A stretch of 64,000 nt of DNA, taken from contig OX424570.1 in assembly GCA_949152475.1 (NCBI GenBank), positions 3,026,181-3,090,180 of the forward strand. The letters run 5' to 3'. A model generated the notes under the pieces. The model searched no databases. It saw nothing but the letters and a program-made list of their open reading frames with translations, and had not been told where the DNA came from. This document shows, in pieces, positions 4,782 to 52,800 of this stretch (its first letter is position 1; the number at the start of each line of letters is the position of its first letter). Source of the DNA: Terebella lapidaria. Lineage: Eukaryota > Annelida > Polychaeta > Terebellida > Terebellidae. The position numbers and the translations under genes were made by a program.

Positions 4782-4835
4782 ATGCCATCAGCCGAGAAAA
4801 AACTCACCAAGATGGAGGATAGCAGCGATGATTCC
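4782..4835 (+). CDS. Candidate first coding exon 1a of the DPP-like gene
   Basis: ATG followed by 17 codons ([18 protein letters not shown]) and then a gtaaat donor in phase 0, the phase required by the exon at 16980. A short, charged, acidic cytoplasmic tail directly before ELVGS is what DPP6/DPP10 isoforms have. The resulting protein would be 820 residues. The exon is short and lies 12 kb upstream, so support is phase, position and composition only. Confidence 0.45.
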
Positions 4836-13800: not shown

Positions 13801-16800
13801 GGCCCTGAACGCAGGGGGTTTCCTGGGCTGTGCTGTACGGGTGACTGGGATGAAGATGTGATTATTTCTCGGAAAGATGGTGACTGGACTGAATGATTGA
13901 ATCAAGCTCATTTCATCAGAAACCCGAGTATTGTATAATATATACATTTTGACCTGAATTTTGTGTTTCTTTGTGTATCACACGTAACCATTTTTTTCGT
14001 GGAAATACATAGTGTATGCTATTTCACTGTTTGGTATGTACATCTATAAGGATCAACTACACAATATCGTCTACTCTTTCAAAAAATAGAAACACAAACA
14101 AAGCATATTATGTCCACCAGTAATAAACCGCATATAGTGGACGAGCCTGTTACATGACATTTTGCGAGAGACATAAGACTTCCAGTGTTGCTCTGCGAGC
14201 CATAAACATGCAACAATGGTCAGGGATATAATGCCGCAGACAAACTTTGATGTCTTTTTATCGAGCGCTGTCAGGAAATGTTCACTTTTTCACGTCAGCT
14301 GTGAAACTTGATGACAGCAGACAGGTCATATTGTTGGAATTATGTTCTGTCCAACTTGGAAATGGCAGAAAAGAATAAATCTGTTCACATGTATAAATAG
14401 TAGCCAATTCTATGTCACTGAACGCACATCAAGATCACAGGAAAGGTAATCTACCGTGATATAAGTATTGAACAAAATGCATCATTGGTGCTTGACGATA
14501 CATGTATTTTAGGAAAAAACGCTCCAAAATCCCCCATTTCAGCATTGCGAGTAACTACCATCCGTGCAAGATTCCGAGCGGATCGCACTTTGTGTCGTGT
14601 TTTCTGGTGCGAAATAAATGGATTTATACTCCCGTTGCATGCAGATTAAGGTGGCACAAGGCCATAAAGGGAATTGGTTGATGGGTTGGGGAGGGGGGAG
14701 TTTGATCAGGATAAAGTTACTGTAGCGAAGAACGGGAAATGGGCAAAATGATAGATTGCGGGTATTTTCTACTTTGTGCTAGGGGTTTCAATCACAGTGA
14801 TTTATCTGTTTTTGAGGGTATATGGAGTGGTTAATGGATAAAGCCATCACATTTTGTTGCGTGCTTTGCAAAGTCTGAAACAATCTCATGATCACATGAG
14901 CATAAAGGCAGCTCATGTAGGGCATAGCTTGTAGATCATATTTATCTCATATAAAAGATGGCACAGAGTGGCTTTGGCTGCCGAGATGATAGAGTCTCCA
15001 ATAAAAAAGATTCTGTTTCATTATGGATTATTATCTATGCACAGCCATTCCCTTGCACTTTGCTGTTTTTCTCCTCTATGTTTTGTATATTCCACATGTG
15101 AACTTGGATCAAATGAATGTTTGCTTTTTGTTTCTCAAGCAGGATTTAGACGTTTGCCATGCCGTTTATCCTTTCAGGGATACCCCTGCCCTTCTGTCTC
15201 CTGACCATACCCTCTAGTCTCATGTTCCATGTTGCTATGGTTACAGGAGCTGGTCGGAAGCAGCCCTAGGGTCCACTCAGGGATACTCCTGCCTCTGTTC
15301 CCTGACCATACCCTCTCGTCTCATGTTCTATGTTACTATGGTTACGGGAGCTGGTCGGAAGTAGCCCTAGGGTCCACTCAGGGATACTCCTGCCTCTGTT
15401 CCCTGACCGTACCCTCTCGTCTCATGTTCTATGTTGCTATGGTTACAGGAGCTGGTCGGGAGCAGCCCTAGGGTCCACTCAGGGATACCCCTGCCTCTGT
15501 TCCCTGACCATACCCTCTAGTCTCATGTTCTATGTTACTATGGTTACAGGAGCTGGTCGGAAGAAGCCCTAGGGTCCACTCAGGGATACTCCTGCCTCTG
15601 TTCCCTGACCGTACCCTCTCGTCTCGTTCTATGTTGCTATGGTTACAGGAGCTGGTCGGAAGCAGCCCTAGGGTCCACTCAGGGATACCCCTGCCCCTCT
15701 GTCCCCTGACCGTGCCCTCTAGTCTCATGTTCTATACTACTATGGTTACAGGAGCTGGTCGGAAGCAGCCCTAGGGTCCACTCAGGGATACTCCTGCCTC
15801 TCTGTTCCATGACCGTACCCTCTCGTCTCATGTTCTATGTTGCTATGGTTACAGAAGCTGGTCGGAAGCAGCCCTAGGGTCCACTCAGGGATACTCCTGC
15901 CTCTCTGTTCCATGACCGTGCCCTCTCGTCTCGCGTTCTATGTTGCAATGGTTACAGAAGCTGGTCAGAAGCAGCCCTAGGGTCCACTCAGGGATACTCC
16001 TGCCCCTCTGTGCCATGACCGTACCCTCTCGTCTCATGTTCTATGTTACTGTGGTTACAGAAGCTGGTCGGAAGCAGCCCTAGGGTCCACTCAGGGATAC
16101 CCCTGCCTCTGTTCCCTGACCTTACCCTCTAGTCTCATGTTCTATGTTGCTATGGTTACGGGAGCTGGTCGGAAGCAGCCCTAGGGTCCACTCAGGGATA
16201 CCCCTGCCTCTGTTCCCTGACTGTACCCTCTAGTCTCATGTTCTATGTTGCCATGGTTACAGAAGCTGGTCTGAAGCAGCCCTAGGGTCCACGCAGGGAT
16301 ACTCATGCCCCTCTGTCTCCTGACCATACCCTCTAGTCTCATGTTCTATGTTGCCATGGTTACAGGAGCTGGTCGGAAGCAGCCCTAGGGTCCACTCAGG
16401 GATACTCCTACCCCTCTGTCTCCTGACCGTACCCTCTGGTCTCATGTTCTATGTTACTATGGTTACAGGAGCTGGTCGGAAGCAGCCCTAGAGTCCACCC
16501 AGGGATACTTCTGCCTCTGTTCCCTGACCGTATCTCTCTAGTCTCATGTTCTATGTTGCTATGGTTACAGGAGCTGGTCGGAAGCAGCCCTAGGGTCCAC
16601 TCAGGGATACCCCTGCCTCTCTGTTCCCTGACCGTACCCTCTAGTCTCATGTTCTATGTTGCTATGGTTACAGAAGCTGGTCAGAAGCAGCCCTAGGGTC
16701 CACTCAGGGATACTCCTGCCCTCTGTCCCATGACCGTACTCTCTAGTCTCATGTTCTATATTGCTATGGTTACAGAAGCTGGTCGGAAGCAGTCTTAGGG

Positions 16801-19800
16801 TCCACTCAGGGATACTCCTGCCCTCTGTCCCATGACCGTACTCTCTAGTCTCATGTTCTATGTTGCTATGGTTACAGGAGCTGGTCGGAAGCAGCCCTAG
16901 TGTCCACTCAGGGATAATCCTACCCTCTGTTCCCTGACCGTACCCTCTAGTCTCATGTTCTATGTTACTATATTTACAGGAGCTGGTCGGAAGCAGCCCT
17001 AGTCAGAGGAACTGGCGCGGAATTCTGATCGCTCTGCTTGTCATCATCGTCGTGTGTGCACTCATCGTGGTCGCAGTTATACTTGTGACGCCCAGTAAAT
17101 ATATTATTGTATTAAAGTGGCATAATCATTATCGTTTACTAGTTTACTCTGTCTAGTATCACGAATAAAAGAACTAAGAAAAATTATACAAATATCTTCC
17201 TGATAGGCCTCGTATGATCTATTGGTTCTACCACTGGATATATTCGAGGCAAATGATCTAACAAATTATGTCATGCTCTCACCAATACATTATCAATAAG
17301 GCTACTTTCAGCAGTGTTCAGTAAATCTTCCAATGAATACAATTTCCATTTTCAACTATTTTTCAACTTGAACAATAACATGAGTAATGCAAGAACACTA
17401 GTCAAATTAATATCATGATTGGAAAAGTTTGGTATGAAAACTTTGTATTCACATATGTATATGAAGCAATTTTAACTTACTCTCCAGAAAATGAAGTGGA
17501 ACCCCTCGGAGAGTTGTTCACGTTCGAGGACTTTATCAATCGGCATTATGAGCCGAGAATGTTTGCCGCGACGTGGATCAAAGGTCAGTGATCAAACAAT
17601 ATTGGATATAAACATACACAGTGTTCATTTGAACATATACTTAATAACAAAACTTATACTGGCTCTGATATAGAGTGTGAAAATAAAATTTATGCAAAAT
17701 ATACTCATACACGTAAAGCACTTGGAATAAATTTGAGAATTATTTCCTCTATGTCTTTCTTGATGTATGCATGATATATTCTCGTTGTTCACCATTGTCC
17801 ACAGACACTGATGTCTTTGTTTACCTGTCAAAAGAGGGAGAAATCATCGAGTACAATGCTGCAGAGAATTCCACGTTCATCATCATGGACAACTCCACAT
17901 TTGTAAGGACGTTTTCAAAAATGGAAAATATGTGAAACAGTTCAGAACTTAGTCGTGTATGATCTAATTTTCCTTTTTGAAATAGACAGTGAAAATCAGC
18001 ATTTGAAAATGTTTTAATACCGGGTAGTTATAATCTTTCTTTTTTTGTTTTTTTTGCAGAGAACTCCAAAAATGGAGGCATTTTATGTGTCACAAGACTT
18101 GAATTATGTGCTAGTAGCATATGATGTTGAAAAGGTTTGTAAACAGTGTGTACATGTCGATCCAAGTATTGCCTAAAACCTAAAGAATATTTGAGTATGA
18201 ATGACTCATAAAATTTATAGCAATGACACAATTTTTGCAGACTTTCAGACATTCCACCAAAGCGAGGTACAAGATTTATAACCGGCGCGAAGAGTCATCA
18301 GAAAAGTAAGTCCCTGCCACTAAATAATATTTCCCAGTCTTGACATGTGTACTTATGAACATGAATCCGATAGTATCTGCAAGCCTAGGGCAGAAAAAGA
18401 TTGAAGCCTACTAGATTCAGCAGGCAGAACAAAATGTTTAACAGATTAATACCAAAATTTTAGTGTCAATCAATTTCAAAATGGCAGCTTCACCAATAAT
18501 TCATCACACAAATATAGGTAAAATACTGGGTTTTTTGCAGGAAGTTGCTCAAGTTTCCCATGACGCTAGACTCGGGCTGGGACGAGAAGAAACTGCAGTA
18601 CGCCGGCTGGTCACCGCGCGGGTGTTCACTGGTGTGTACTCGCTTGAATCCAATCTTGCTAGGTGATACATGTATAACATCATATTCTATCATATTCATA
18701 TTCTACAGATTAAACTCTGCAGTTCTTTTGTCTTGAAATTATCTTTTTTATCATCTGCACAACTTTTTTGTCATCTGTGTTTGTCTAACTGATTCACACA
18801 TTCAAGTCTATCGCTAGAAATAATATTCATTATTTATTCCTTATACTTGCAACATATCCAGGCTTTTTCAAAATTATATAGCATTGTTATCAAATATTCA
18901 CAACTCATTGTTGCTAGCACAATATCTCATATCAATGTGCTTCACTGGTGTACATAAAATGTTGAAAAGCACTGTACCTGCAAGGAAAAAATCCAGACCA
19001 TATTTTTTGTTTGTGCATTTTCCAGACTTTTGTATACGATAACAACTTATACTTCCAAAAAGACCCTTTCACAACCGCGACACGAGTCACAAATTCCGGC
19101 AAACTGAAATTTGTATTCAGTGGAATCGCAGATTGGATGTATGAAGGTACAGAGACTTTAATAAATTTCCCTTCGGCATAACTTCCCCTTACACATGAAT
19201 TACCATAAAATCATTTTGATATGGTCATTTCACGTTTTGTAGGCATTTGATATGGCATTTTGATATGGTCATTTCACATTTGTAGGCCTACTTTTAATAA
19301 AAAGTTTAAAGTATGTTTGTATGTGGTAAATGAAGACCGGATTGTGGTACATAACGCAAAAATTCCTGTTTGATTATCATAATATTTCAATATTTTTCAC
19401 TTCAAGCTACCGTTTCGTATGATGATCTAATGCCATCTATATTTTATTGACACAGAGGAGATTTTACGCAGCAGTGTTGCTCATTGGCTGTCACCAGATA
19501 GCACGTACATCGCGTACGCCGTCTTCAATGATACGAACGTCCCGCTGTACAAATATCCTATGTACGGAGATACTACCGACATATACGGGCATGTCAAGGA
19601 AATTGCCTATCCTAAGGTTTGTGGGTCAAACCATTCAATTGGTCGATACTAAACGGTATATTTGAAGAAATTTTGGAGCTTTTGGGCAGATTCTCCACTT
19701 CTGCAATTAAATTGCTTCACCAAATGGGTTATCATTTGTGGTAGAATATAAAGTCAAATTACATGTAGTATATTTATGTTAGATTGGATTGATACAAAAA

Positions 19801-22800
19801 AAAATTTTCATTTTTGCAGGCTGGAGATGAAAATCCAAACGTGAATCCATCCGTCCAACTGTTTGTCGTGAACACCAAGACTCTGAATGTCAACAAACCA
19901 CTGCTGCCTCCCAGGGATTTCAGAAATCAGTCCGTATAGGAATAAACCTATAGTTTCTTTGCAGAAGACATCATGCAAGTTTCAACAAAATTCGTTCATA
20001 TCAAATGAACTGACATTGTGTTGGTTTTCGGCAGGGATCACTATTTGTTAGACGCTACATGGAAGGATGAACGCTGGGTTCTAGTGACTTGGTCCAACCG
20101 GATCCAGAACAAAACCATTCTGTCTCTATGTGACGTCGTGGCTGCGGAGTGTACAGACGTAAGCATTCTTCAAATGTTCAGATGTTTTTGGGAGAATGCT
20201 AGGCTGGATTCAAATCCACATTCTATATCAAATTCATGTATTTTCACTACAGAATTATCAACCTATTTGTATTTATCGAATATGATATCATAATTTTGAT
20301 AGTGTTTCAAGTTTGAATTTTGTTCAAATATCGGCAGATCTGTATCAGATTTCATAAATACCGATGTACTGAAATTGGTGATAGATGAGATTGTTATATT
20401 TGATATAATTAAGGCATTTCAGCAGAAATGCCTTTATGGTTTTGTCAAAATTTTTTTTTTCTTTTTTTTTTTTTTTTTTTCTTTTTTTTTCACTTTTTGG
20501 TTTCCGCACGATAACTTCAGTTTGCCTCGATGTATCTTCGCCAAATTTTCACTGCTGGTCAGAAATGTTGTGTGGAAGAAGCCTATTGTTTTTAAGCCGG
20601 CTCCGGGGTCCGTGAGGTCCGTGAGGATGAAATCAATGTTTCTGGTTTCCGCACGATAACTCAAAAAGTGTTATGGCAATGACTGTGGAACTTTGCATGG
20701 AGGTTCATATATCACCAGGGAAGAAGCCTATTGATTTTGAGGCCGATTCGTCAAACGACCTTTGACCTAGGGCTCGAAATAATTTTAGCTGAGTCATCCT
20801 TGAGGCTCTCCTGCATATCTCGGAAACGGTGCGTCGTAGAGCGAAACGGACGTTATTTTCAGACTCGTCATCCTAGACAAACATGTCTAAGGGGTATTAT
20901 GGATGACCTTTGACCTTGACCTTAAATTTTTTCGCTGAGTCGGCATTTTTCGTTTATGTCGATATCTCGGAAACGGTGCGTCGTAGAGCGAAACAGACAT
21001 TATTTTCGGACTCGTCGCCCTAGACAAACATGTCTTAGGGGTATTATGGATGACCTTTGACCTTGACCTTAAATTTTTTCGCTGAGTCGCCATTTTTCGT
21101 TTATGTCGATATCTCGGAAACGGTGCGTCGTAGAGCGAAACGGACATTATTTTCGGACTCGTCGCCCTAGACAAACATGTCTTAGGGGTGTTATGGATGA
21201 CCTTTGACCTTGACCTTAATTTTTTTTGCTGAGTCGGCATTTTTCGTATTCGTCGATATCTCGGAAACGGTGCGTCGTAGAGCGAAACGGACGTTATTTT
21301 CGGACTCGTCGCCCTAGCTAACATGTCTTAAGGGTATTATGGATGACCTTTGACCTTGACCTTAAATTTTTTCGCTGTGTCGCCATTTTTCGTTTTCGTC
21401 GATATCTCGGAAACGGTGCGTCATAGAGCGAAACGGACGTTATTTTCGGACTCGTCGCCCTAGACAAACATGTCTTAAGGGTATTATTGATGACCATTGA
21501 CCTTGACCTTAAATTTTTTCGCTGAGTCGGCATTTTTCGTTTTCGTCGATATCTCGGAAACGGTGCGTCATAGAGCGAAACGGACGTTATTTTCGGACTC
21601 GTCGCCCTAGACAAACATGTCTTAAGGGTATTATGGATGACCTTTGACCTTGACCTTAAATTTTTTCCCTGAGTCGGCATTTTTCGTTTTCGTCGATATC
21701 TCGGAAATGGTACGTCGTACAGCGAAACGGATGTTATTTTTGGACTCGTCGCCCCAGACAAACATGTATATAGGGTATTATGGATGACCTTTGACCTTGA
21801 CCTTCAATTTTTTTCGCTGAGTCGGCATTTTTCGTTTTCGTCGATATCTCGGAAACGGTGCGTCGTAGAGCGAAACGGACGTTATTTTCAGACTCGTCGC
21901 TCTAGACAAACATGTCTTAGGGGTATTATGGATGACCTTTGACCTTGACCTTAAATTTTTTCGCTGAGTCGGCATTTTTCGTTTTCGTCGATATCTCGGA
22001 AACGGTGCGTCGTAGAGCGAAACAGACGTTATTTTCGGACTCGTCGCCCTAGACAAACATGTCTTAGGGGTATTATGGATGACCTTTGACCTTGACTTTA
22101 AATTTTTTCGCTGAGTCGGCATTTTTCGTTTTCGTCGATATCTCGGAAATGGTGCGTCGTAGAGCGAAACGGATGTTATTTTCGGACTCGTCGCCCTAGA
22201 CAAACATGTACATAGGGTATGATGGATGACCTTTGACCTTGACCTTAAATTTTTTCGCTGAGTCGGCATTTTTCGTTTCCGTCGATATCTCGGAAACGGT
22301 CTCATTGGGAACTTATCATGTCAGCATTTTGTTTTTTCATGCTTCACCCTGAAATGCCTCCAAGGCCTTTAGGCCTTGACGTCTAGTTATATTTCCGAAA
22401 AAGGCTACATTCATCAAAATGCAGCAAAAAATTGCAAAACAAATATCATTGTACTTTCAGAACTTGGTTGAAACCAGTAATGAAGGCAATGGATGGACAC
22501 AAGTGGTATGTCAAGTTCTTTGAGCAAATAATAATAAAATACATGGTTTTTGCCTTACTCTGTATGTGGCATTATGACTTGTCACTCCCAACATTAGGGA
22601 ATTTTGGTGCATTTCACTTTATAAATATTCAAAATGCATGTAACTCGACTCGACTTTATTCCTTCAGGAAAAAGTTCGCTTTATTAACGACGGTGAGAAT
22701 TATCTGACGGTTTTACCGGAGCTCAACGGAGACAGCGGTTATTGGAGGCACATCGCGATGGTCAGCTCTAAGGTGAGGCTTCTAGCTGGCGATGTGACGA

Positions 22801-25800
22801 TCACAAATATTTCCAATAGTGGTTTGTGTTAGTGCCTGTTGTATATCAGAGAAGGCCAAATTTTATCATAATGCCTCGAATCTGTTGTCATGATGTAACC
22901 ATGCTAACGTGCATTATGATTTACATAATTTTTAGGAAGAGCAGAGCTCTTCCTCTATGATGTTGGGTTTTTTTTGGATTTTGGAGAATTTTCCTTTGTT
23001 TACATTTCGGAAAGTCCGACTTGGAGCCAGAGCAGACCATTCAATTGTGGATAATTAGGAGGGCCCGGGGCCAGTTGGAAAGAATATGACACCCGTGTAC
23101 CCAAGTATGGTTACTGTAATAAGTTATAAGCAATAATAGCCACAGGAGACGTGTGTTCCGACCGTTTATTTTTTTTGTGTGTCACCGTTTCATCACCCAT
23201 CACCACTCCCGTTTTGATCTTCTCTGAAATAGGGCTTTCTTGTATCAGATGCACTCAAAATTTTGCATAAACATTCCAGACTACATAGATAGTACATAAG
23301 CTATTGCAAAAATGGAAAAACGCTTGATACGGCAACACAATAATTGAAAACTTGTGGCAAGAGCTGGTATGTCCAGTAGGCCAAATGCAAATGAGTGTGG
23401 CCCCCTCCTAGTGTTTGTTCGCGAGGCAGCCAGCCACACTCGACCCGCTTCATCCCCATTCCGCACCACCTCTCCGCACCACCTCCCCCCCCCCCCCCCC
23501 CCATCCGACTACGACCCAATCGTTATAAATGAAAGCTGGGCGCACCCGGGTAAAAATCAGGTCTGCTGAATGGTCCGATGAGTTTGTCGCATGAATATAT
23601 CGCTAAACTATCTGCAAGATCGCAATCGTCGATACTGATGGATTTCAGAAATAAGATCCACCTCGAGAGATCATATATGCCGATGACAACAAGTTCACTT
23701 TCTTCACTATGCCTCCCCCCTCCTCTTCCACCTAAACATCGCGGTGAGCGTGCCTCATAGCCTAATGAATAATTAATGAGATGACATCACGAGATACTGT
23801 TAATACAAAAATAAATCAGTTGATCATAGCTTATCAATCATCTTTTAAAATCAATGATTTGTTGGTTGAGTCATGTTTCAATTGCTCGATTATTTTGTGC
23901 ATGATAGGTTACCAGTAATTGGAATCGTACCCAAATATGCAGCAATCTGAATCACATCATCACGTTTGTCACAAATGCCAGTTCTCATCATAATGGACGG
24001 CACATCTTTCCTGTAGGGGCCTACTGCATGCTTCAAGAGCGCCATCTGTTGAATGTCACGTATGATCAGATAGGCCTGTTGTTGTTACACCACTAATATT
24101 GGTTGCATGGGAATCGTGATGTGGCATTCTGAGCTGTGACATTGTTTAGACAATTAACAAGACATATAACATGTCTACTGATGGAGATAAAAAATAAACC
24201 GATGGGTAAATACTAATTAGGTCTATTATTGACCACAGTAAATTTAATTAAGACATAAAACATTTATTATTGGGCACAATAAGGTAAAGGTTCTGTCCAC
24301 TACATATTTCATGACTGTAACCGAATAGGTTAACATTAACTTTACTAGTTGTGTCTACTAGGGCCTATTGACCACAATAAAAAATAGTTAGGACATGAAA
24401 CATTGACTATTAGGTTCAAGATAAAGGTTCTGGTAAATATTTATTTGATGCTTGTAGTAGGTATGGTCATAATATGAAAATAAGTTAACATCGATTTTTG
24501 CTAGTTGAATCTATTAATAGTTTGGGGGGGGGGGGGGACTTTTTAGGTTACCGGACCTATGGTCCGATAACCTATTGCCATGGCGTTGCGTCCGGCGTCC
24601 GTCCGTCGTCCGTTCGTAAACAATTTTATCTTTAAAGTTTACGATCCGATTTTTCTGAAATTTTGCACAAAAATGCCTAAATATATTTCGAGAGGGAGGT
24701 ATTTTTTAGTTTTTTGATTTTCGCATTTTTTTCAAAATGGCGGCCGTTTTCGTCGAAAAATGCCTGATTTTGGATTTTGGCGGCCATTTTCTCAAAAACT
24801 GTTCAGTAACTTTTTTTCTTTTTGATACACAACACTCCTCATATATACTCCTGTGATGTGTATAAGTTTCGTTGCGCTTGAATCGCTCGAAGTGGGCCAT
24901 TTTGGGCCAAACTCGGCCCAAATGGGACTTTCCCATGTTAAATTCTCCTATGCTTTATAATGGGACATATTATGTCTTATATCTCACTTAATATTGAGAT
25001 TAGAGACTAGGAATCAATTGTGGACATATAGGAAATCATATATGCTGAATATTGTCGTGACCTTGAATTTGACCTCTGACCTCGGTTTCAAGGTCAGAGC
25101 GGCCGTTTTCGTCGAAAAATGGCCAATTTTGGACTTTGACGGTCGTTTTCTCAAAATCTGTTCAGTAACTTTTTTTTGTATTGATGCATAACACTCCTCA
25201 TATGTACCCCTGTGACATGTATAAATTTCGTTGCCCTTGAATCGCTCAAAGTGGGCCATTTTGGGCCCAAACTCGGCCCAAATGGGACTTTCCCATGTTA
25301 AATTCTCCTATGCTTTATAATGGGACACATTAAGCCATAATATCTCACTTAATATTGAGATTAGAGACTAGAAATCAATTGTGGACATATGGGAAATGAT
25401 ATATGCCGAACATTGTCGTGACCTTGAATTTGACCTTTGACCTCGGGTTCAAGGTCAGAGCACAAAATGGCTAATATCTCGCTTATTATCGACTTTACAG
25501 CTTAGAAATCAATTGTGAACATATAGGAAATGATATATGCTGAATATTCTCGTGACCTTGAATTTGACCTTTGACCTTATTTTCAAGGTCACATGACAAA
25601 ATGGCTAATATCTCGCTTAATATCGACTTTACAGCTTAGGAATCAATTGTGAACATATAGGAAATGATTTATGCTGAATATTCTCGTGACCTTGAATTTG
25701 ACCTCTGACCTCGGTTTCAAGGTCAGAGCGGCCGTTTTCATCGAAAAATGGCCAATTTTGGACTTTGACGGTCGTTTTCTCAAAATCTGTTCAGTAACTT

Positions 25801-28800
25801 TTTTTCTTATTGATGTATTAACTGTACATATTTTGCATATTACTGAATATATGTTCTCTTTCCAGTTCTGATTGCGTTATACCTGACATTGCACATTCTT
25901 TCACATATACAATCCTTACCATTCGAAGTTAAGCCTGAGGCGAAGTGTTTGGGGTTCACTTCTTAATACGTCCCCCGAATGGTTTTGATTGCTATATGTC
26001 TATGTGTGTGTAGGTGTCTTTATGTTTCATTTAAGAAAACTTGTATTTCCCCTATTTAACTTCGTTAATTTTGGTATTAATATGAGAGAAAGCCGCGAGC
26101 CTGTGTATCTGTGAAAGATGCACACACAATCCCTTTAGCAGGTGGCACGCATCCACGCGACCGCAACAAACCGCAGATTGCTTTATGGCCCCATGGCGAC
26201 AAAGTTAACGAGTTTAAATGCCCTCAAAAGCATGCCTCAGGAGCATGAGCAGACGGTTTGGTGATCACTGATCAAGGTTATAAAAGACAGTTAACCGGTG
26301 TTTGACGGTTAACCGGTAATCGTTTGGAGATTTAACAGCCGGTTATTCGCGGTTATTAAAAAAATGCTAGCCGTCGGCGGTTAACCCATTAATCGTGCAG
26401 GCCCTATTTATTATTGACTTTACAGCTTAGGAATCAGTTGTGCACCTATGGGGAATGATGTGTACATGCCAAATATTTTGATGACCATTAATTCGACCTT
26501 CGACCTTATTTTCAAGGTCATGGAACAAAATTGCTATTTTGTTTTACTTGTTATTGAATTTACAGCTTAGCAAACAATGGACATATCGGGATTCCAAAAT
26601 GTTCTATTTTACGTTTGTTTTTGGCATCATCAAAATCTGACTATTGGTGGTAATAAATTGATACTTACTTTCATATCACTGAGTCAGTGTCACTGCTGGC
26701 GGACGTTGAATCTGTCCCCGAGGATACCATCAACTCAGTAGCCTTCTGGCTTGTGATTAGGTACTTATGTACTTGTCATATATCTATTCCATGGGGTTTG
26801 TTTCAGATTTCTAAATTATTTTCATAGGTTGTTGGGCAGTTGTATACTAATTCCATCAGGTGTACAGTAGAAACAACTACATTTAACACACTGTCTGCCC
26901 CTGATGACGCCAGTGTGTCTTTGGATAAACTATTTGGTCGGGCTTGTTTCTATTCCAAAATGTTCTATTTAACGTTTGTTTTTGGCATCATCAAAATCTG
27001 ACTATTGGTGGTAATAGATTGATACTTACATTCATATTACTGAGTCGGTGTCACTGTTGGCGGACGTTGAATCTGTCCCCGAGGATACCATCAATTCAGT
27101 AGTTTTCTGGCTTGTGATTAGGTACTTATGTACTCGTCATATATCTATTCCATGGGGTTTGTTTCAGATTCTAAATTATTTTCATAGGTTGTGGGCAGTT
27201 GTATACTAATTCCATCAGGTGTACAGTAGAAACAACTACATTTAACACACTGTCTGCCCCTGATGACACCAGTGTGTCTTTGGATAATCTATTTGGTCGG
27301 GCTTTGTTTCTATTCCAAAATGTTCTATTTTACGTTTGTTTTTGGCATCATCAAAATCTGACTATTGGTTGTAATAGATTGATACTTACATACATGTTTG
27401 CTGGATATTCTCATGACTTTGCATTTTGACCAGTGACCTTATTTTCAAGGTCACAGGAATATAAAACATATTTTGTCCGGTAACCTGTCTTAGCCCTTGG
27501 GCTAATTTTTTTGTGGGGGGTTGATAGGGCTACGGGAGATACACTCCAGCAGTCGCCAGTGACTGGAGAACATCTAGTTTGGAAGATGGGACTAGATGGA
27601 ATCAGTACCTTAATAATGGTATCAATCAATTTATATTAGGCCAAATCAACAATAAGCAAATGATTGGCCAGTACAATATCATGGGCTACAGTTACAATAT
27701 GGCCACAACATATATGTACCGAATAGGATACGATTAGGTTTTGAACTAGTTCTGTGCAAACATTTTCAAAGCTCTTCCTATGAGGCCAGTGGCCCTTGTT
27801 GTGTTCCACTTTCAGTCAACAAACCCTGCGGGAACCAAATCGTTCCTGACACAAGGAGAATGGGAAGTATCTAGTATAGTCGGCTACGATAAGGAAACAG
27901 AGTTCATGTGAGTATCAACCGCGTCCTGAATTGATATTTCTTCAAATTTTACATCACAGTTTGATTGCTTTCAAGAGTAAATATATTTATACTTCCATGC
28001 TTTTGATAAGATGACAGTGAATTGACGAAGCTTTCCACGTTTATTTCAGATATTACATCTCAACAAACAGAGACCCTAAGACAAGACATTTATTTGGGTA
28101 AAATATTTTTATATAATATATCTAAACCCAAAGTCACGCTTGATATTACTTTCGAAATATTGGCGATATTACTATAGTAAATGAGGAACTGAAATTTGAA
28201 TCTATGTTTACCATTTGGTGTACAAATTATTAATTTCACACAATTTTTCTGCAGATACGGCCCAAATACCCAGGGTCAGTCAGTACAGAGATGTCTAACG
28301 TGTGATTTGGGGAGAGATTGTCAATTTGTTGATGCCTTGTTCAGCTCGACTGGGAAATACTACATCCTGTCTTGTCAGGGACCGGGAATCCCGACATTCA
28401 CACTTAGGAACACAATTAATGATGACGGTACGATTTTATGACAAACGTTCGAATGGAATAAATCAAATATATTGAAATATTAGGTTGCTAAATTGTAGGA
28501 TCACGTTGTAATTTTAGCTAGATTCAACTTTTTTGTTCTGAGCAGTGTTCACGTTAGAAGACAATGCTGATATCAAGGAACGATTATCGACAAAAGCTTT
28601 GGCGAGCATTGAATATATACAGATTGAGGCCGATGATGGGGAATGTAAGTTCTCTTTATTCCCTGATTAATATAATACACCAGAAATTGCCACTTGCCTC
28701 TAACTCAACTGGACGTTTTGTGTTGAAACTCAAATTTTATCATGTTTGATTCATAGTGTTGTGGATGAGGGTCTTGCTTCCTCCGATGTTGAAAAAAGAC

Positions 28801-30611
28801 CACATCACACAATATCCTCTGCTGTTTTATGTGTAAGTAATTTTCAATTATATAAAACTGAAACTGTTCGTACATCTGTACACAAGTTCTGTTCGAACAC
28901 TTCAACGTTACTAAATAGCATTGGAATTATAAATATAATTGGTTATAAATATAATGTCCTGTGAATTTATAGGTCAATTCTCTCTCATCTTCTTGAAAAA
29001 AAACTGTTTGTACAAATATGTACATGTAAAACATATAACTACGTATTTCCATTCACCCTCTGACAGTTACGGCGGTCCAGGCACCCAGCTAGTGACACAC
29101 CAGTACGTGTCCGGCTGGGAACGCTTCCTCAGCAGTAACGCTAGCGTCATTTACGCGACGGTCGACAATCGTGGCACGAAGGGGCGGGGCGACAGGTTCC
29201 ACCACAAAACCTACAGGAACCTGGGAACGTACGAAGTCACCGACCAGATAGCAGCCGTCAAGTAGTAAGTGTGCAGATAGGAAGGGGTCGTCTCTGCAAT
29301 ATTTCTGCAAATTTGTAAAAAAAAAATTGTTGATTTTCATGCATGGAAACTCACACAAAAAAATACAAGCATTCATAAGTTTTGTTGAAAATGGCATAAT
29401 CATCATTCATTGAGATGTGATATATTATGATATTTCACTGGATTTTCAGCCTTCTCAAACAGACTTATGTGGACAAGGAACGAGTGGCCATTTGGGGATG
29501 GGTACGTATATCGATGAAAAAATTATATTCACCCATACATTTACATAACTAATCTCAAAAACCTTCAATGTTGTGAGAAATTCATAGAAACTGTTGTAAT
29601 TGCCCAGTCGTTCGGAGCGTTTGTGACGTCGCACATCCTGGGCGATGAGTCGAGGTATTTTACTTGTGGGATCGCCGTGGCGCCGGTCACTGACTGGAGA
29701 TATTACGGTATTTATTACTCTATTCGCTGCTTTTATATTCAGAGATACCCTCAATAAAATAAGTGGATGACAATCTGACACAAATTTAATTCATCAGCAA
29801 ATTTGAAGTTAATCATGTGGAGATATTGGATTGGCAGTTTTCATCGTTATGAATCGTTTTCCATTAACAAATGCCAGTGGTAAGAGTCACCTAGAAGTCA
29901 TTTGACTCTTACAGACACTGCCTATACTGAGAGGTACATGGGGCTGGCGCATAGCAAAGACAACTATCGCGGATATGATGTGAGTTAATGCTGATATATA
30001 ACTTCAAATCAATGATAGACTGATCAGATTTCTAGTCATTCTAATTGCCAAAAACATGGCATTCTCAATAAGCATGGATAGTGGAAATAAAAGTTCAATA
30101 AAAAATGTGATGTGTTTGTTTTCACAGAATGCTAATGTGTGTGCGAAAGCTGCAAACTTTAAAGACAAAAAATTCTTGTTAGTTCATGGCACAGCAGATG
30201 GTAAGATTGTTAACACAATTTTTAAAATATAACAAACATTTTAAAAAAGTAATATATTAAGTGCTGAATATTTAACACAAGTGGAACCTGAATACATGAA
30301 TCCTACTGATACTCATTATTGGCATTTCAATACTTTTATATAAAAAATTGGTCAAACTTGAACATGTCATTTGTTATTTTCCAGACAACGTGCATTTCCA
30401 ACATTCAGCTCACTTGATTCAAGCGCTAACAGACGCTGAAGTGGATTTTCGCATTCAGCTTTACACGGACAAGACTCACTCGTTACCCGGAGAAAAAACT
30501 ACGCGCCATCTCTACCAGACCATGACGCGCTTCCTACAGCAGGAATGCTGGGACGGAGGGAGACCCCGCGACGCAAAACCCGTTGAAAAGAAACAGTTCG
30601 GGAAATCGTGA
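4782..30611 (+). CDS. Dipeptidyl-peptidase-like membrane protein, DPP6/DPP10/DPP4 family (24-exon gene model)
   Basis: Single-pass type II membrane protein with an extracellular beta-propeller and an alpha/beta-hydrolase domain of peptidase family S9B. Coding exons read directly, all in phase: 16980-17094, 17488-17583, 17805-17902, 18060-18134, 18241-18305, 18541-18631, 19026-19146, 19456-19616, 19820-19929, 20035-20158, 22461-22505, 22668-22772, 27816-27907, 28050-28097, 28255-28427, 28546-28644, 28757-28832, 29067-29264, 29450-29501, 29608-29707, 29915-29979, 30128-30200, 30385-30611. They sum to 2409 nt, 802 residues plus TGA, the usual family size. The start lies in an upstream exon (candidates at 4782 and 12141). 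The motif [14 protein letters not shown] next to the membrane segment is DPP6/DPP10-like (family knowledge), but the catalytic residues are all present. All donors are GT; the donor of the 19820 exon (gtccgt) is weak. The large introns hold transposons. Whether it is an active protease, a Kv4-channel partner, or both is inference. Confidence 0.92.
4836..8180. other. Intron or spacer with assembly gap
   Basis: Holds an N run at 5357-5556 (exactly 200, probably a placeholder of unknown true size), C/G tracts at 6175-6212 and 6397-6412, and otherwise unique AT-rich DNA. Under the exon 1a model it is intron 1 of the DPP-like gene. Frames over the gap are artefacts. Confidence 0.45.
5357..5556. 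other. Assembly gap (200 N)
   Basis: Exactly 200 N, typical of a gap of unknown length in a scaffold. An exon could be hidden here. Confidence 0.99.
8181..10826 (+). mobile_element. Inverted-repeat DNA transposon with subterminal iterons
   Basis: Ends AAGCC(A)ATACACATTAGGCG at 8181 and, inverted, a near-identical end finishing GGGCTT at 10826; about 35 bp match with few differences. Inside both ends the motif cgatattatcggcgat and variants recur several times in both orientations (8196-8340, 10720-10810). No transposase frame seen. A 3-bp TAA flank is possible (Harbinger-like) but ambiguous. A hAT-like element is nested inside. Confidence 0.7.
8730..9434 (+). mobile_element. Non-autonomous hAT-like element, nested
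   Basis: Terminal inverted repeats CAGTGGCGGAT (8730) and ATCCGCCACTG (ending 9434), flanked by an 8-bp target duplication TCTGCATG (8722-8729) / TCTGCATA (9435-9442) with one mismatch, the hAT signature. 705 bp, no transposase. Contains two poly-G tracts and a 64-bp direct duplication (agctcacgaaagtaatacat at 9000 and 9068). Confidence 0.82.
10827..15169. other. Non-coding stretch around candidate exon 1b
   Basis: Apart from the exon candidate at 12141, nothing coding is supported. 11096-11780 is more GC-rich and has open frames on both strands without recognisable similarity; it could be a regulatory region. G tracts at 12926-12937 and 13075-13092. Confidence 0.35.
12141..12164 (+). CDS. 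Candidate alternative first exon 1b of the DPP-like gene
   Basis: ATG plus seven codons (MDDPDKLE) run straight into a consensus donor gtaaga in phase 0, again compatible with the exon at 16980. Vertebrate DPP6 and DPP10 use several alternative first exons with short acidic or charged tails, so two such exons here are plausible. Eight codons is little evidence; a chance ATG before a donor cannot be excluded. Confidence 0.4.
15170..16979 (+). repeat. Minisatellite of about 102-bp units built from a splice acceptor and exon start
   Basis: About 17 tandem units, with GAGCTGGTCGGAAGCAGC-type segments starting near 15249, 15350, 15450, 15551, 15650, 15753, 15856, 15958, 16058, 16162, 16262, 16366, 16467, 16568, 16673, 16774 and 16878. 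The next one, at 16980, is the true exon. Each unit has tctatgttgctatggttacag (a pyrimidine-poor but usable acceptor) directly before the copied 23 exon bases, then intron-like filler ggtccactcagggata... and ccctgaccgtaccctct. Units differ by a few substitutions and 1-3-base indels. Confidence 0.95.
16980..17094 (+). CDS. DPP-like exon 2: membrane anchor
   Basis: Encodes [14 protein letters not shown] followed by about 23 hydrophobic residues ([12 protein letters not shown] and on to VILVTP), the type II signal anchor. Both the juxtamembrane ELVGS/QRNW block and the anchor are characteristic of DPP6/DPP10; in vertebrates this region contributes to binding Kv4 channels. The acceptor is tatttacag and the donor is gtaaat in phase 1. 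The first 23 bases and the acceptor are shared with every unit of the adjoining upstream minisatellite; the true exon diverges from the repeat after CCCTAG. Confidence 0.93.
17488..28644 (+). CDS. DPP-like exons 3-17: extracellular beta-propeller region
   Basis: Fifteen exons encode the stalk and propeller. Exon 4 (17805) has two NST glycosylation sequons. Exons 6-7 read into [10 protein letters not shown], a family-conserved strand. Exon 8 ends DWMYE and exon 9 (19456) continues EEIL, giving the Glu-Glu motif that in DPP4 holds the substrate amino terminus. Exon 11 (20035) includes [16 protein letters not shown], and exon 16 (28255) has the paired cysteines [13 protein letters not shown] and LSCQGPGIP typical of the family's Cys-rich segment. 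The intron after 20158 holds a 2-kb tandem-repeat element, and that after 22772 holds 5 kb of repeats. Exon boundaries are all supported by phase and by GT/AG. Confidence 0.9.
20413..22386 (+). mobile_element. Helitron/HINE-like element with 147-bp tandem core (family 1)
   Basis: Left end GGCATTTCAG at 20413-20422 is matched inverted by CTGAAATGCC at 22349-22358. A perfect 8-bp hairpin CAAGGCCT-TT-AGGCCTTG (22361-22378) is followed by ACGTCTAG then T, the 3' form expected for Helitron-like elements. Between them is a poly-T tract (20450-20490) and a tandem array. No transposase frame, so non-autonomous. It sits in the intron between exons 11 and 12 of the DPP-like gene. Resembles the tandem-core non-autonomous elements known from bivalves and flies (pearl, DINE); assignment is by structure only. 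Confidence 0.65.
20755..22300 (+). repeat. 147-bp satellite array, about 10.5 units
   Basis: The marker TGACCTTTGACCTTGACCTT recurs near 20903, 21050, 21197, 21344, 21491 (variant), 21638, 21785, 21932, 22079 (variant) and 22226, a period of 147-148 bp. Units also share tatctcggaaacggtgcgtc and ggactcgtcgccctagac. Because 147 is a multiple of three the minus strand stays open over several units, giving repeat translations that I do not regard as genes. Confidence 0.93.
22773..24545. other. Intron sequence with minor repeats
   Basis: Contains a perfect 8-bp hairpin GGAAGAGC-aga-GCTCTTCC at 22935-22953, a poly-C tract near 23487-23503, an imperfect 150-190-bp duplication (24215-24500: gaccacaNtaaaNNtaNttaNgacat), and a G tract at 24524-24538. 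No exon. Confidence 0.45.
24546..27515 (+). mobile_element. Helitron/HINE-like element, family 2, copy 1
   Basis: Left end is a hairpin GGTTACCGGACC-tat-GGTCCGATAACC (24546-24572). The right end has the inverted TCCGGTAACC (27476-27485) followed by hairpin AGCCC-TT-GGGCT (27492-27503) and a T run. In between are repeats with gaccttgaatttgaccttt and ggctaatatctcgctta (24540-25860, 26405-26570), a unique segment at 25860-26400, and a 360-bp duplication at 26592-27400. No protein-coding frame. Located in the intron between exons 13 and 14 of the DPP-like gene. Same family at 44605 and 47139. Confidence 0.6.
26592..27400 (+). repeat. 360-bp tandem duplication
   Basis: attccaaaatgttctattt recurs at about 26592, 26952 and 27313; the two complete units between (360-361 bp) are nearly identical. 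Within each: ctgactattggtggtaata, ggcggacgttgaatctgtcc and aactacatttaacacactg. High identity means a recent event. No coding capacity. Confidence 0.88.
28757..30611 (+). CDS. DPP-like exons 18-24: S9B hydrolase domain with intact catalytic triad
   Basis: Exon 18 reads [17 protein letters not shown], and exon 19 starts YGGPGTQLV, keeping the tyrosine (codon 29068) equivalent to the DPP4 oxyanion residue. Exons 20-21 join to [14 protein letters not shown], so the G-x-S-x-G nucleophile serine is codon 29608-29610, the first codon of exon 21. Exon 23 ends HGTAD with the catalytic Asp at 30197-30199, followed by DNVHFQHS. The catalytic His is in [10 protein letters not shown] at 30477-30479. Vertebrate DPP6/DPP10 lack the serine (family knowledge). 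Stop TGA 30609-30611 after an unconserved basic tail [10 protein letters not shown]. Confidence 0.93.
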
Positions 30612-46800: not shown

Positions 46801-49800
46801 CCTGGACACTTAAGTATTTGAAGATAAAACTTAAATTTGTATTATGGGCCTATTTTAAATCATGGTACATCATATTTCAATTTTGAAATTGACCTCATAT
46901 GACCTTGGGTACTCATAGTTACATCCACATTAATTTGTATATTTGTATCAATTTGAAACAGCAGGTAAGTGCTAGAGTAGTTGTTTAGGTTTCTATATTG
47001 CATGGTCATATTTGAATTTGTTTATGGGTCATCTTATAGTGACCAGTGTTGCACCGGGGAATCTATTTAGAGGTTCGATGATCGATGTTGAATTTCTGGA
47101 CGATGATTGATGTCACAGAATGGCAACATCAACTTTTTTAGCTTACCGGACCTATGGAATATATATGATATATGCCGAATATTCTGTTGACCTTGAATTT
47201 GACCTCATTTTCAAGGTCAAAGCACAAAATGGCTAATATCTCGCTTATTATTTATTTTAAAGCTTGGGAATCAATTTAGACATATAAGAAATGATATATG
47301 CTGAATGTTCTTGTGACCTTGAATATGACCTTCGACCTCATTTTTAAGTTCAAAGCACAAAATTTCTAATATCTTGCTTATTATCGACTTTACAGCTTAG
47401 GAATCAATTGTGGACATATAGGAAATGATATATGCCGAATTTTCTGATGACCTTGAGTTTGACCTTTGACCTAATTTTCAAGGTCAAAGTACAAAATGGC
47501 TAATATCTCGCTTATTATCAACTTTACAGCTTAGAATCAATTGTGGACATATGGCAAATGATATATGCTGAATATTCTGATGACCTTGATTTTGACCTTT
47601 AACTTCAGTTTCAAGGTCAGAGCACGAAATGGCTAATATCTCGCTTATTATTTACTTTACAGTTTGGGAATCAATTGTGGACCTATAAGAAATGATATAT
47701 TCTGAATTCTCCCGTGACCTTGAATATGACCTTTGATCTCATTTTCAAGGTCAGAGCACAAAATGGCGCATATCTCACTTGTTGTCAACTTTACAGCTTA
47801 AGAATCAATTGTGGACATATAGGAAATGATTATGCTGAATATACTTGTGACCTTGTAGTTACCGGACAAGCGGTCCGATCACCTGTTGGCTTGGCGGTAA
47901 GCTACAGGCCCAAGTTTTTGTACATGTAGATAATGGAGGGGGCAGACAGACATTCGATGTCGCTTGACCTGTGGTGGGGATATCATTATAAACATAATAT
48001 TGATCACACTATTGACTATGTAAGATGATCAATAAGATTTATTGTACAGAGTGAGGACAAGTTTAGTTTATTGGTCGCAGGTGACCTCCGAGTACTAAGA
48101 TTACTAGTCTAACTAGAGCATTGATAGCCTCGGGGGTTAGTGATCTGTAGCAGATCAACAATACATCCATGTTTTTATCGTAAGAGCTTTATACTGTTGC
48201 CAGTCTAAGTCTGCTGCCAGTTGGACGATCGGTATTGATATATTCTTTAGGAGTATTTTGGGCAGCCGTTCAACCATAGGCCAAATCGCCCGAAGAACTT
48301 TGTTTTTGCCCATGAAAATAAGGTGAAAATGTCCTGAGCATTGTATTTGTGGTAACTAACTCGAGTTTAGGTCAATTTGTTATGCTAAGCGATACTTACC
48401 TCTGACTCTGGGGTCGTGTAATTGGCGAGCCCTCATTCGCCAACCACACATGAAATATGGGTGAAAAAGCTAAACGAAAGTTAGCCGGTCCGTTTAGACC
48501 CTGCGTTAGTAATGGTAGTTACCTGAGCAGTTCACCCTCCGTGTGGTAGCATAATCGTGCCGGTCCACTGCCTCCCAGTTCACTTTTGTTTTTGGCGAGC
48601 TCCTGTCAACAACAACTTTGCGTCGCTCGCGATTGCCCCTTTGAAGTTTGGATTTTGGAACTTAGCTGTTTCTACGATGGAATCGTCTTCTGTCAGGAGA
48701 TGTACCAAGTGTGGACACTTCTTGGTTCCTCTCGATCTCGATCCTCACGATCGCTGTCCGTCTTGCAGACCGTTTGTTTGCTGTGCGTCTCAGCGCTGTC
48801 AGATCTGCGAATCTTGGCCCGATGACAGATTCGACAGGATAGATCAGCGTAGGATCGACAGGGAGAAGAAGAGGTCGCGTTCTGCTGATCGACGATCTCT
48901 GGATTCCTCTTCCTCGTCTCGTCTTGATTCCCTCGAACAGACTGTTGGGAATTTGCAGACTTCCATTGCGTCCATGTCGGCGATGTTGTCGTCCCTGGTT
49001 GGGAAAGGAGTTGCGACACCGGCCACCCCCACGGTGGATGAAGTTCCGACGCCGCTTCTCTCTGGTGACCCGTTCGTCGGCGGCAACCCCCCGAGCCACA
49101 GTCCAGCTGACCAGCCTTCGTGTTCCTGGGGTTTGCCTTCGTTGGACCCGATCTTCTCGGAGCCAGTTGACTCGGCCACGGTGGATTCCCGTTCCCAGGC
49201 TGCCGAGACCGGCGAGTCGGTCTCGGAGGAACAGTCAGGTGAAGGCAGGGGCCCCGTCGGTCGTGCCAAGTGTGGCCCCCCCGACTACTCCACCGTCCAG
49301 CTCTCCGACGGCCCTGTTGATGTGCTTGTGGTGGACAAGTCTCTCGCTGGTAGCCCGGGCCGTGTTCAGCACCGTGACGCCTCTTCAGCCCAGGGTACCT
49401 CTTCTCCAGCCGCAGCGGTGCCGCGCGGGTGCTTACCCGACCGTGACCGTGATCAGCAGCCACCGGTGGCCAGCCCGGGGGTTTCTCAGCCCAGTGTTCT
49501 GCCCCGCGATCTTCCACCGTCCGTCAGTCGACGCGCGGACAGCCGGTCGTCTTCCTCCAGTGGAGATTCGCACCGCGGGTCAACAGCCACGGCGGATAGT
49601 GTTCTTCCAGCGGTGGGCCGCCCGTCCTCGCCTGACCGCCGCCACCGTCCAGCTCGGCCTGTGGATCAACACCGTTCCGGCGATTGGGATCGTCCGTCCT
49701 CCAGCCGCGCGGATCGGTTCCGTGATTGGGTTTATGATCATCGTCGTGAATATGACTTTGACCGTTCTTACCATGAAGAGTTGGATCGTTACTACCGTTC

Positions 49801-52800
49801 CGGCCGTTCTCGTGACGATAGGGACTACTACTACCGTCGGGAGCGTGCGGACCGCAGGGACTACTCCTCCAGGGATTCTCACGGTAGCCGTGGAGAGAAA
49901 AGTTCACGCTCGGACTACGACCGTGTGAGGGAGCCCAAGCGTCCCGCTTCAGACCACGCCCCTAGGTCTGAAGGTGAGCAACACGCGGCCGGGTCGTCCT
50001 CTGTTGCTGTTTTGGAGCCTCCAGTCTCGTTGCCTCCCCCCCCGGCAGACCAGATCTCGGATGAACCTCCAGTCAAGAAGCCGCGGGTGGCTAGCCCGGC
50101 TAGGTCTGCCGACTCCTCAGCTACGGCCGGTACCTCCAAGCCTTCCTCCTCCAAGTCTGACGACGACACCTTTGCCCAGGTCCGCGTTTGGGTTCAGGAG
50201 GCCTTCCCTGACGAGATTGAGCTACCTGTAGCCAAGGGGACTTCTTATACGTCGGTGGGTGAGCGTGTGCTCCACGCCCGTCAGCAGCCGGAGCCGGACG
50301 TGCGCTTCCCGTGGTCCGAGGGTATCTTGTCAGTACGGACTCTAGTGGAAGAGAAGATCGTCCCAGTCAATGGACAGCCCCTACGAGCTGGCAAGTTCGC
50401 CTCGTGCTTCCAAGGACAATTAAAGCACTACCAGTCTACGGATTGCGGTAGCACTCTGGAGGCAGCGGCGGTGAATGACGACCTGTCAGTCATCGCCCCT
50501 GGGCTCAAGTCCTCGAGTGTTACCGCTACACTTTCGGACTCAGATCTCAAGACCTGGGAATCTTACCCGCGTCGGGTACAACTGGTTGCCAACACCCTCG
50601 ACTGGCTCTCGGGCCTCCTCAGCGTGCAGGTCGACCGTCTGGCCCCCGGTTCGGTTCCAGCGGACGCCGATTTGGACACGGATGCCACTGTTCAAGTACC
50701 GGTGTCGGAGTTGCTGCGCATCAAGAGGACTCTTTCCTCCGTTAACAAGTGTGTGGGACAGATTACGAAGGAGTCGCACGTGGAGTGGGCCAACGTCGTT
50801 CTCAGGCGACGGGACGCTTTTCTCAAGAGATCTACCTCCAAGCTGTCGGACGCCTTCAAGTCCAAGTTACGCACGTCCTCGGTCTTTGGTCCTCGCCTCT
50901 TTGACCCGGATGTCCTGGCCAAGGCAGGCCAGGCGGTTGCCCAGGAAGCGGACCTTCTCAGCAAATTTAACTTAGTTAAATTGGTGGAACGCCAGGAGAA
51001 GAAGCCTGCGGCATCCTCTTCCTCGTCGTTCAAGATCCCGAAGGTCAAGGCCACGGAGTCGAAACAGCAGTCTCAGTCGTCTCAGTTTTCTAAAGGCTCC
51101 AAGTTTGACAAGAACAAGAAGTCGACTAACTCTTCACGTGGAGGTCGCGGCGGCAGTGGATCCTCGTCTTCTGCCAAGCCTCAGCCCCGCTCCTGATGTG
51201 TCCCAGACGCTCCCACGGAACCACGATTCGGATGTATCCCCCGTGGGAGCTCGTCTTCAGGCCTTTTGGCCAGTCTGGGATACGGAATTCGAGGACTGTC
51301 TAGTAACTACCATACTGCGTCACGGGTACCGGATTCCCTTCAGTCAGGCGCCTCCTCTCTCCCCTCTACCGATAGCGTTCGCATCCTACGCCCCGGGGTC
51401 GGAGAAGTTTGCGGTCCTGGGCGCCCTCGTGTCCGAGATGCTCCTCAAGGAAGCCACGGAGAAGGTGACCCAGAACTCTCCCGGCTTCTACAGTCGTCTG
51501 TTTGTCGTCCCCAAGCTCACGGGCGGCTGGCGACCGATAATCGACCTCAGTCCCCTGAACAAGTTTGTCTCCAAGGAGAAGTTTTCCATGGAGTGCCCAC
51601 GGACGGTTCTACTGTCTCTGCGCAGCGGGGACTGGATGACCTCCATAGATCTGAAAGATGCCTACTTTCACATCCCGATTCATCCCTCATCACGGCCCTA
51701 CCTTCGTTTCCAGTGGGGCAACGTGATCTACCAGTTCCGTGCTCTGTGTTTCGGCCTCTCCACCGCCCCGTTCCTGTTCACCAGGGTGTTTCAGCCGGTA
51801 TCGGCGTGGGCGCACCGCAGGGGGATTCGTCTCACGAGGTATCTGGACGATTGGCTGATTACGGCCACGGACCAGCAGACGGTGGCCGCACACACGGACC
51901 AGATCGTTCGGCTTTGTCAGCGAGTCGGTCTCATTATAAATTTCAAGAAGTCAGACTTGGCTCCTTCCCAGCGTGTCACCTACCTCGGGATGGACATCGA
52001 CACGCAGTCCTTCCTGACACGTCCGACGGCAGATCGTATTCAACGTTTGAACGGCGTTCTACGGTCTTTCTCCATCGGGGTTCCCGTCGCGGCGGTGGTG
52101 TTCCTGAGGCTCCTAGGTCACATGGTGTCGCTAGAGAAGATCGTCCCTGGTGCACGGTTGCGCATGCGGGCGATCCAGTTCCACTTGAAGGACCACTGGT
52201 CTTCCGAGCAGGACTTGTCAACTCTGGTTCCGGTGGTTTCCGCTCTCCAGCCAGATCTCCTCTGGTGGTCCGATCCAGTCAACCTGCTACGGGGTCATCC
52301 GATTCACGAGTTGGAGCCCGACTTTCTCCTGTTCTCCGACGCGTCTCGCCTCGGTTGGGGTGCTCACCTCGGCGAAAGTCAAGTCTCCGGTCTCTGGTCG
52401 GCGGCCGATCTCCGGCATCACATCAATTGGCTGGAGCTCAGGGCTGTCTGGTTGGGCCTGCGCCATTTTCATCAGACGGTTGCCGGGTCCACGGTACTGG
52501 CCATGACCGACAACACGACGGTCGTCGGCTATATCAAGAATCAGGGGGGGACACGATCAAGGGAGCTAAGCGCCTTGACTCGAAGAATCTTGGAGTGGGC
52601 GGAATCCCAGGATGTCAGTCTTCTGGCCCGACACATCCCGGGCTCCATGAACACCATCGCCGACGCCCTTTCGAGGAAGGGTCCGGTTTCCACGAACTGG
52701 TCTCTGAACCCTCAGGTTTGCAGTCACCTGTGGCGTCTTTGGGGTCAGCCTCACTTGGACCTGTTCGCCACGTTCCAGAACAATCGTCTACCTCTCTATG

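Follow-up and report, generated by a model that had tools for sequence, protein, structure and literature searches.

The DPP4/FAP-like gene and its paralogue

The window, that is the whole stretch of 64,000 nucleotides of Terebella lapidaria DNA that was analysed, contains a DPP4/FAP-like gene which consists of the following parts:

4782 to 4835, forward strand: probable exon 1, phase 0, with the donor gtaaat; its sequence and phase agree with exon 2
16980 to 17094, forward strand: authentic membrane exon (exon 2), its final exonic a followed by the donor gtaaat; supported by the sequence and by the exon of the paralogue
17805 to 30551, forward strand: downstream exons with introns between them; supported by comparison of open reading frames with the paralogue and by the Pfam families PF00930 and PF00326

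The downstream exons carry the DPPIV_N and Peptidase_S9 domains that characterise the S9B dipeptidyl peptidases (DPP4/FAP/DPP6/DPP10). Of six exon pieces, five give a match to PF00930 or PF00326; one of these matches has 21.3 bits and is thus under the curated cut-off of 22, and for the piece at 19456-19620 no Pfam family was found; in a separate Pfam run two exons of the window exceed the cut-off. The exon at 29062-29262, the sole one compared with solved structures, is closest to FAP and DPP4, while DPP10 and DPP6 are weaker matches. GWSxG is the serine motif of the active S9B members and is not known to occur in DPP6 and DPP10. Read by eye across an exon junction, GW is followed by SFG in this gene and by SYGG in its paralogue, and the deduced motif of the gene has the GWSxG form of the active members.

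The paralogue is located about 14.3 Mb from this gene on the same contig and has most of the exons found here in common. Its membrane exon shows 80% protein identity to the one of this gene over 40 residues, its acceptor occupies the corresponding position and so does its donor, which identifies the membrane exon of this gene as real. A tblastn search did not detect a membrane exon in either of the remaining DPP-like loci, C3 and C5.

A tandem array across the boundary of intron 1 and exon 2

Directly at the acceptor of the membrane exon, Tandem Repeats Finder (TRF) reports a single tandem array at 15174-17002 with a period of 103, 17.9 copies and 91% matches. A fuzzy search detects 18 junctions in it, namely 17 upstream copies and the true junction at 16980, and the mean pairwise identity among the 18 units is 92.1%.

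15174 to 17002, forward strand: minisatellite whose units, about 18 in number, measure 99-103 bp each (TRF, junction search and alignment of the 18 units)
15247, 15348, 15449, 15550, 15649 and 15752, forward strand: decoy junctions 1 to 6, first exonic base (junction search)
15855, 15958, 16061, 16162, 16263 and 16366, forward strand: decoy junctions 7 to 12, first exonic base (junction search)
16469, 16571, 16674, 16776 and 16878, forward strand: decoy junctions 13 to 17, first exonic base (junction search)

With the exception of the first one, every unit comprises 76-80 bases from the 3' end of intron 1 and the 23 bases with which the membrane exon begins. The exonic part is present in all 17 decoys with 14 of 391 letters changed, and the decoy consensus does not deviate from the true exon at any of the 23 bases. 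The initial annotation had therefore recognised correctly that an acceptor and the start of an exon were multiplied, that the last unit is the real exon and that this exon ends at 17094. Its count of about 17 decoy acceptors stands for the 15 copies that keep the AG and are credible by their local score, but not for those at 15348 and 16162, which read GG instead. Likewise, the motif ctatggttacag given there as the acceptor applies, with variants, to the decoys, whereas the true acceptor reads ctatatttacag.

At the membrane-exon junction of the paralogue TRF finds no array but an ordinary intron end, and the array is thus specific to this gene copy. A gain in this copy would be a simpler reading than the alternative, namely that the paralogue lost an array. 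For a search of the genome DNA (an assembly of 761.6 Mb in 438 contigs) the last unit plus the exon were used as query and the best candidates were scored. Among these are 19 matches, 18 at the DPP locus and one at the paralogue, the latter covering the paralogue's exon and nine preceding bases; a second haplotype of the DPP locus does not appear among the best candidates from this one assembly.

An error of assembly, affecting the copy number or the existence of the array itself, has a precedent in an amphioxus array of related kind that was once misassembled, as the available text reports (PMC3087553). Here it is very unlikely, since the units vary in length and in sequence, unlike a repeated misassembly of one unit, and the flanks of the array run on without N.

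Strength of the true acceptor and of the decoys

Acceptors were compared by a position weight matrix, which yields a local sequence score without branch points and was derived from 35 acceptors belonging to this gene or to the paralogue. Most of these acceptors were defined by an AG whose offset is identical in the two genes, and two pairs with differing offsets were placed by eye. The next exon downstream of the membrane exon was omitted, its acceptor not being placeable in both genes. The real acceptors have a leave-one-out median score of 3.0. The true acceptor of the membrane exon reaches 6.12 as against 1.78-3.50 (mean 2.61) for the 15 AG decoys, which correspond to the 40th-57th percentile among the 35 acceptors. 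Among the 520 AGs elsewhere in intron 1, 18 attain the decoy mean and a single one attains the score of the true site. As judged by local sequence, the decoys look like ordinary acceptors and the true site like a better one. The gap between them comes mainly from two positions:

16972 to 16973, forward strand: the -8/-7 positions, with AT in the true acceptor and GG in all 17 decoys (alignment)

Altogether four differences are private to the true unit, the other two being located at alignment columns 0 and 16.

An AG at 15178, where the array has its left edge, has a score of 5.62 and thus comes close to the true site, which counts against a simple rule that the best score wins. The idea that 15178 represents the ancestral acceptor, with the array inserted behind it, was considered and rejected, as the left flank resembles the paralogue's intron end no more than expected by chance (62 of the 520 intron AGs score as high). 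For the true site and the two decoys that were tried in the same comparison, 29 to 62 of the 520 AGs score as high; since left flank, decoys and true site are all at chance level, no ancestral state is readable.

Reading frame and fate of decoy use

The initial annotation had assumed units of roughly 102 bp that keep the reading frame, so that use of a decoy could insert additional residues before the membrane anchor. The junction spacings (101, 101, 101, 99, 103, 103, 103, 103, 101, 101, 103, 103, 102, 103, 102, 102 and 102) contradict this, as they range from 99 to 103 and equal 102 in only four of 17 intervals. Six of the 17 decoys are separated from the true acceptor by a number of bases divisible by three, and among these six the copy at 15348 has no AG. 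Translations that start from the decoys hit a stop before the membrane exon in 17 of 17 cases, after 3 to 75 residues. The membrane exon's own frame contains 17 stops inside the array, the last of which closes the read-through from every copy:

16935 to 16937, forward strand: TGA, in frame with the membrane exon and 45 bases upstream of it

Residue insertion by read-through is thereby ruled out by the frames and by the stops from all 17 copies. The copies do encode the start of the membrane exon's protein, but an insertion before the anchor could be rescued only by a second splice inside the array. None of the GTs of the array matches more than six of nine donor consensus positions, and such a rescue is therefore unlikely; insertion by any route is hardly credible. 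Use of a decoy, unless a further splice follows, would result in truncation before the anchor.

The same poor donors and the same stops after all copies bear on the idea that the array is an intermediate in the birth of an exon or intron, with one copy being recruited as a small new exon. A model for amphioxus globins, given in the available text, provides for this, since the exonic part of a repeat may turn into an exon when cryptic signals on its flanks come into use (PMC3087553). With the array as it stands here, this fate is highly improbable.

Relation to known boundary-spanning repeats

Tandem repeats of this kind have been described in amphioxus as 'mirages', in the genes for Adh3 and the globins BflGb6 and BflGb9 (PMC3087553), and further lancelet examples are named for PGBD5, Adh and TnC (PMC3902484); both accounts are taken from the available portions of these papers. 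They have in common with the present array that tandem repeats extend across an intron-exon boundary beside the authentic one and that splice signals occur in many of the units. The array is arranged head-to-tail and of minisatellite size, its boundary-spanning unit abuts the authentic junction, the AG is present in many but not all units (15 of 17 decoys), and the inner units, with the edge units excluded, are homogenised. The closest parallel is BflGb6, where, as far as the available text goes, the unit likewise joins the 3' intron end to a 5' part of the exon and the outermost units are the most divergent (PMC3087553). In the array studied here the two outermost units rank first and third of 18 in mean divergence, the second rank being held by an inner unit. 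The differences concern size, as the two haplotypes of BflGb6 have 6 and 3 units of 150-160 bp (PMC3087553) versus about 18 units of 99-103 bp here. They also concern phylum and gene, since the present case is an annelid DPP gene. The mitochondrial genes of the assembly agree with an annelid: on contig C438 Pfam places nad3, a Proton_antipo_M gene at the site of nad2, cox1, cox2 and cox3 one after another, an atp8-like frame was read by eye between cox2 and cox3, and cox1 reads best with AGA as Ser and TGA as Trp. A table for two siboglinid annelids lists an identical arrangement (PMC10815697), and most annelid groups are described as conserved in gene order (PMC4866719).

Other systems are less similar. 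Human internal tandem repeats at exon-intron boundaries of duplicated genes are also of minisatellite size (mean unit 30 bp, 4 repeats) and located at gene boundaries, but according to the text available they changed the exon/intron structure (PMC2812944), whereas the true exon here appears unchanged. Intron gain by tandem duplication, in the accounts available, likewise involves splice signals duplicated in tandem within a gene; there a new intron results, whereas here an old intron, common to the paralogue, has received additional copies of its own end. An annelid example of minisatellites in intron 1 is the earthworm metallothionein gene, whose duplicated fourth exons are absent from the transcript (PMC12783039). 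These repeats may be related to mirages; the available text differs from the present case in that it does not state that the repeat units span a splice site (PMC12783039).

In the open-licence literature no array called a mirage was found outside amphioxus and none in annelids, nor a comparable array in the DPP gene family. The earlier statement that no case quite like this was known in the gene family agrees with this search, but the kind of array itself has been described; the phylum is probably new for mirages. A curiosity known from lancelets now appears in an annelid, and boundary-spanning minisatellites may accordingly occur widely without being annotated. They can lead gene prediction astray, and they offer ready-made tests of how the spliceosome chooses among near-identical neighbouring acceptors.

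Origin and maintenance of the array

The best explanation, which is considered probable, is a neutral mirage minisatellite that is tolerated because the true acceptor is stronger and lies closest to the donor. A founder segment composed of the 3' end of intron 1 and the initial 23 bases of exon 2 was presumably duplicated in tandem. Slippage or unequal exchange would then have expanded the copies and made them homogeneous, while the authentic junction at the right edge of the array would have been kept intact under selection. The copies are most likely ignored by the spliceosome. The authentic acceptor may owe its advantage to a better polypyrimidine tract (AT for GG at -8/-7) and also to its nearness to the exon's donor, as the authentic exon measures 115 bases and an exon starting at a decoy would measure at least 217. 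A transcript spliced to a decoy would contain a premature stop and would probably be degraded. We infer the mechanism of duplication, the normal splicing and the decay of decoy transcripts from these features. Normal splicing of the gene, an expectation borrowed from amphioxus, would be the most likely state; there, Adh3 data and RT-PCR of globins suggested, according to the available text, that splicing is undisturbed by mirages (PMC3087553).

Selection that keeps the decoys functional was considered as well but finds no support. Changed letters among the decoys amount to 16 of 425 in the AG plus exon part and to 63 of 1297 in the intronic part (Fisher p=0.42). Because the former is not better conserved than the latter, the copies look unselected, which fits a state of turnover.

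The decoys score like average real acceptors, and some use of them is plausible on this ground. If they act as poison acceptors, transcripts that use them would be truncated and decayed, and expression would be lowered according to the copy number. The 15 AG decoys within the score range of real acceptors, the stops encountered from all 17 copies and the varying length of such arrays in amphioxus, noted in the available text (PMC3087553), are in line with this proposal. It is nevertheless unlikely, as every decoy junction is outscored by the true site, the AG and exon part of the decoys is without a sign of selection, and amphioxus mirages are reported, in the portions available, as normally spliced (PMC3087553, PMC3902484). 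Should the decoys be used even slightly, copy number could alter expression between individuals or cells.

A second case in a kinesin gene and the frequency of such arrays

Self-repeats overlapping coding sequence were surveyed in this genome with 79 of 151 kinesin matches, derived from 20 loci picked on long contigs, and with 39 exons of the two DPP paralogues. Five of the 79 kinesin matches overlap self-repeats, as does one of the 39 DPP exons, the latter being the array studied here. Among about 120 exons, two cases are thus clear and two more are weaker candidates.

The clear kinesin case (locus L043) is an acceptor mirage with 11 decoys and the true site, that is 12 junctions, at a spacing of exactly 67 bases and with the AG present in 11 of 11 decoys. 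Its exon, YGQTGTGKTFTMEGE, is presumably KIF11-like. Three of the 11 decoys are in phase; ten run into a stop after 36 residues, and the last one reads through the exon in the wrong frame. A genome search with the unit gives six matches, all in a single place. The authentic unit differs from all decoys at only two of 67 bases, located at -5/-4, and these changes bring the acceptor score to 6.11, as against 3.98 without them.

The authentic site thus scores about 6.1 in each of the clear arrays, and the decoys reach at most 3.5 (DPP) and 4.0 (kinesin). A tentative and rather doubtful generalisation would be that mirages recur in this genome and that a mirage persists only if its authentic acceptor has a better polypyrimidine tract than the copies, owing either to a weak founder copy or to an authentic site strengthened later. 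If this holds, the arrays would represent natural competition experiments on the choice of 3' splice sites, with a dozen or more near-identical losers per winner. The acceptor differences themselves are not put forward as a significant pattern, because only one tract event per array remains if adjacent changes count once.

For 19 arrays and 120 exons, four crossings of an array with an exon edge were seen versus a mean of 9.9 by random placement, and 5.2% of the random placements have four crossings or fewer. A special mechanism targeting exon edges was rejected on this comparison; none is needed, because the crossings do not exceed random placement. Mirages look like a by-product of a frequent birth of minisatellites, as far as these placements indicate.

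The other kinesin overlaps are of diverse nature. Two of the five are due to a pair of exons at locus L042 that resemble each other; locus L045 has a degenerate array on the donor side, and L048 has a 16-bp array adjoining the end of an exon.

Clear and possible mirages in kinesin genes

Among the kinesin loci surveyed in the same assembly, the array at locus L043 is clearly a second acceptor mirage, that is, a minisatellite whose units span an intron-exon boundary next to the authentic one. It lies at positions 1871-2675 of the locus (contig C9, minus strand) and comprises 12 junctions with a spacing of 67 bases and matches of 98%, in a KIF11-like kinesin gene. A donor-side mirage is possible at L045 (828-872 and further; contig C7, minus strand), whose array consists of units of about 20 bp with the donor region repeated (8.9 copies, 59% matches, relaxed TRF). 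The kinesin exon end of this locus, ggcaaggtcatcag/gtacata, leads into the degenerate array.

At L048 (1-295; contig C13, minus strand) the apparent end of a kinesin exon is ctcag/atatcctt, where ccttgacaaccagg-like units begin to form a 16-bp array. The sequence atatcctt resembles the consensus of a minor (U12-type) donor.

Other features of the window

At the left edge of the DPP array, the AG at window position 15178 (tttatcctttcag) has an acceptor score of 5.62, only a little below that of the true site. Further arrays and open frames are:

20815-22300, 25338-25729 and 47165-47855: TGACCTTTGACCTT-rich arrays, 147- and 134-bp units
48527-54196 and 61978-63999: long GC-rich open frames

Period-134 arrays are also present in regions B and D, two other DPP loci, and period-147 arrays in D. 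The GC-rich frames, which have no Pfam match, possibly represent a retroelement.

Possible ciliate contigs

Small contigs of the assembly, including C417, C414, C351 and C182, contain a Cox1 frame of 703 residues and kinesins with in-frame TAA/TAG, as the ciliate genetic code allows. The Cox1 frame and these kinesins suggest ciliate contamination.
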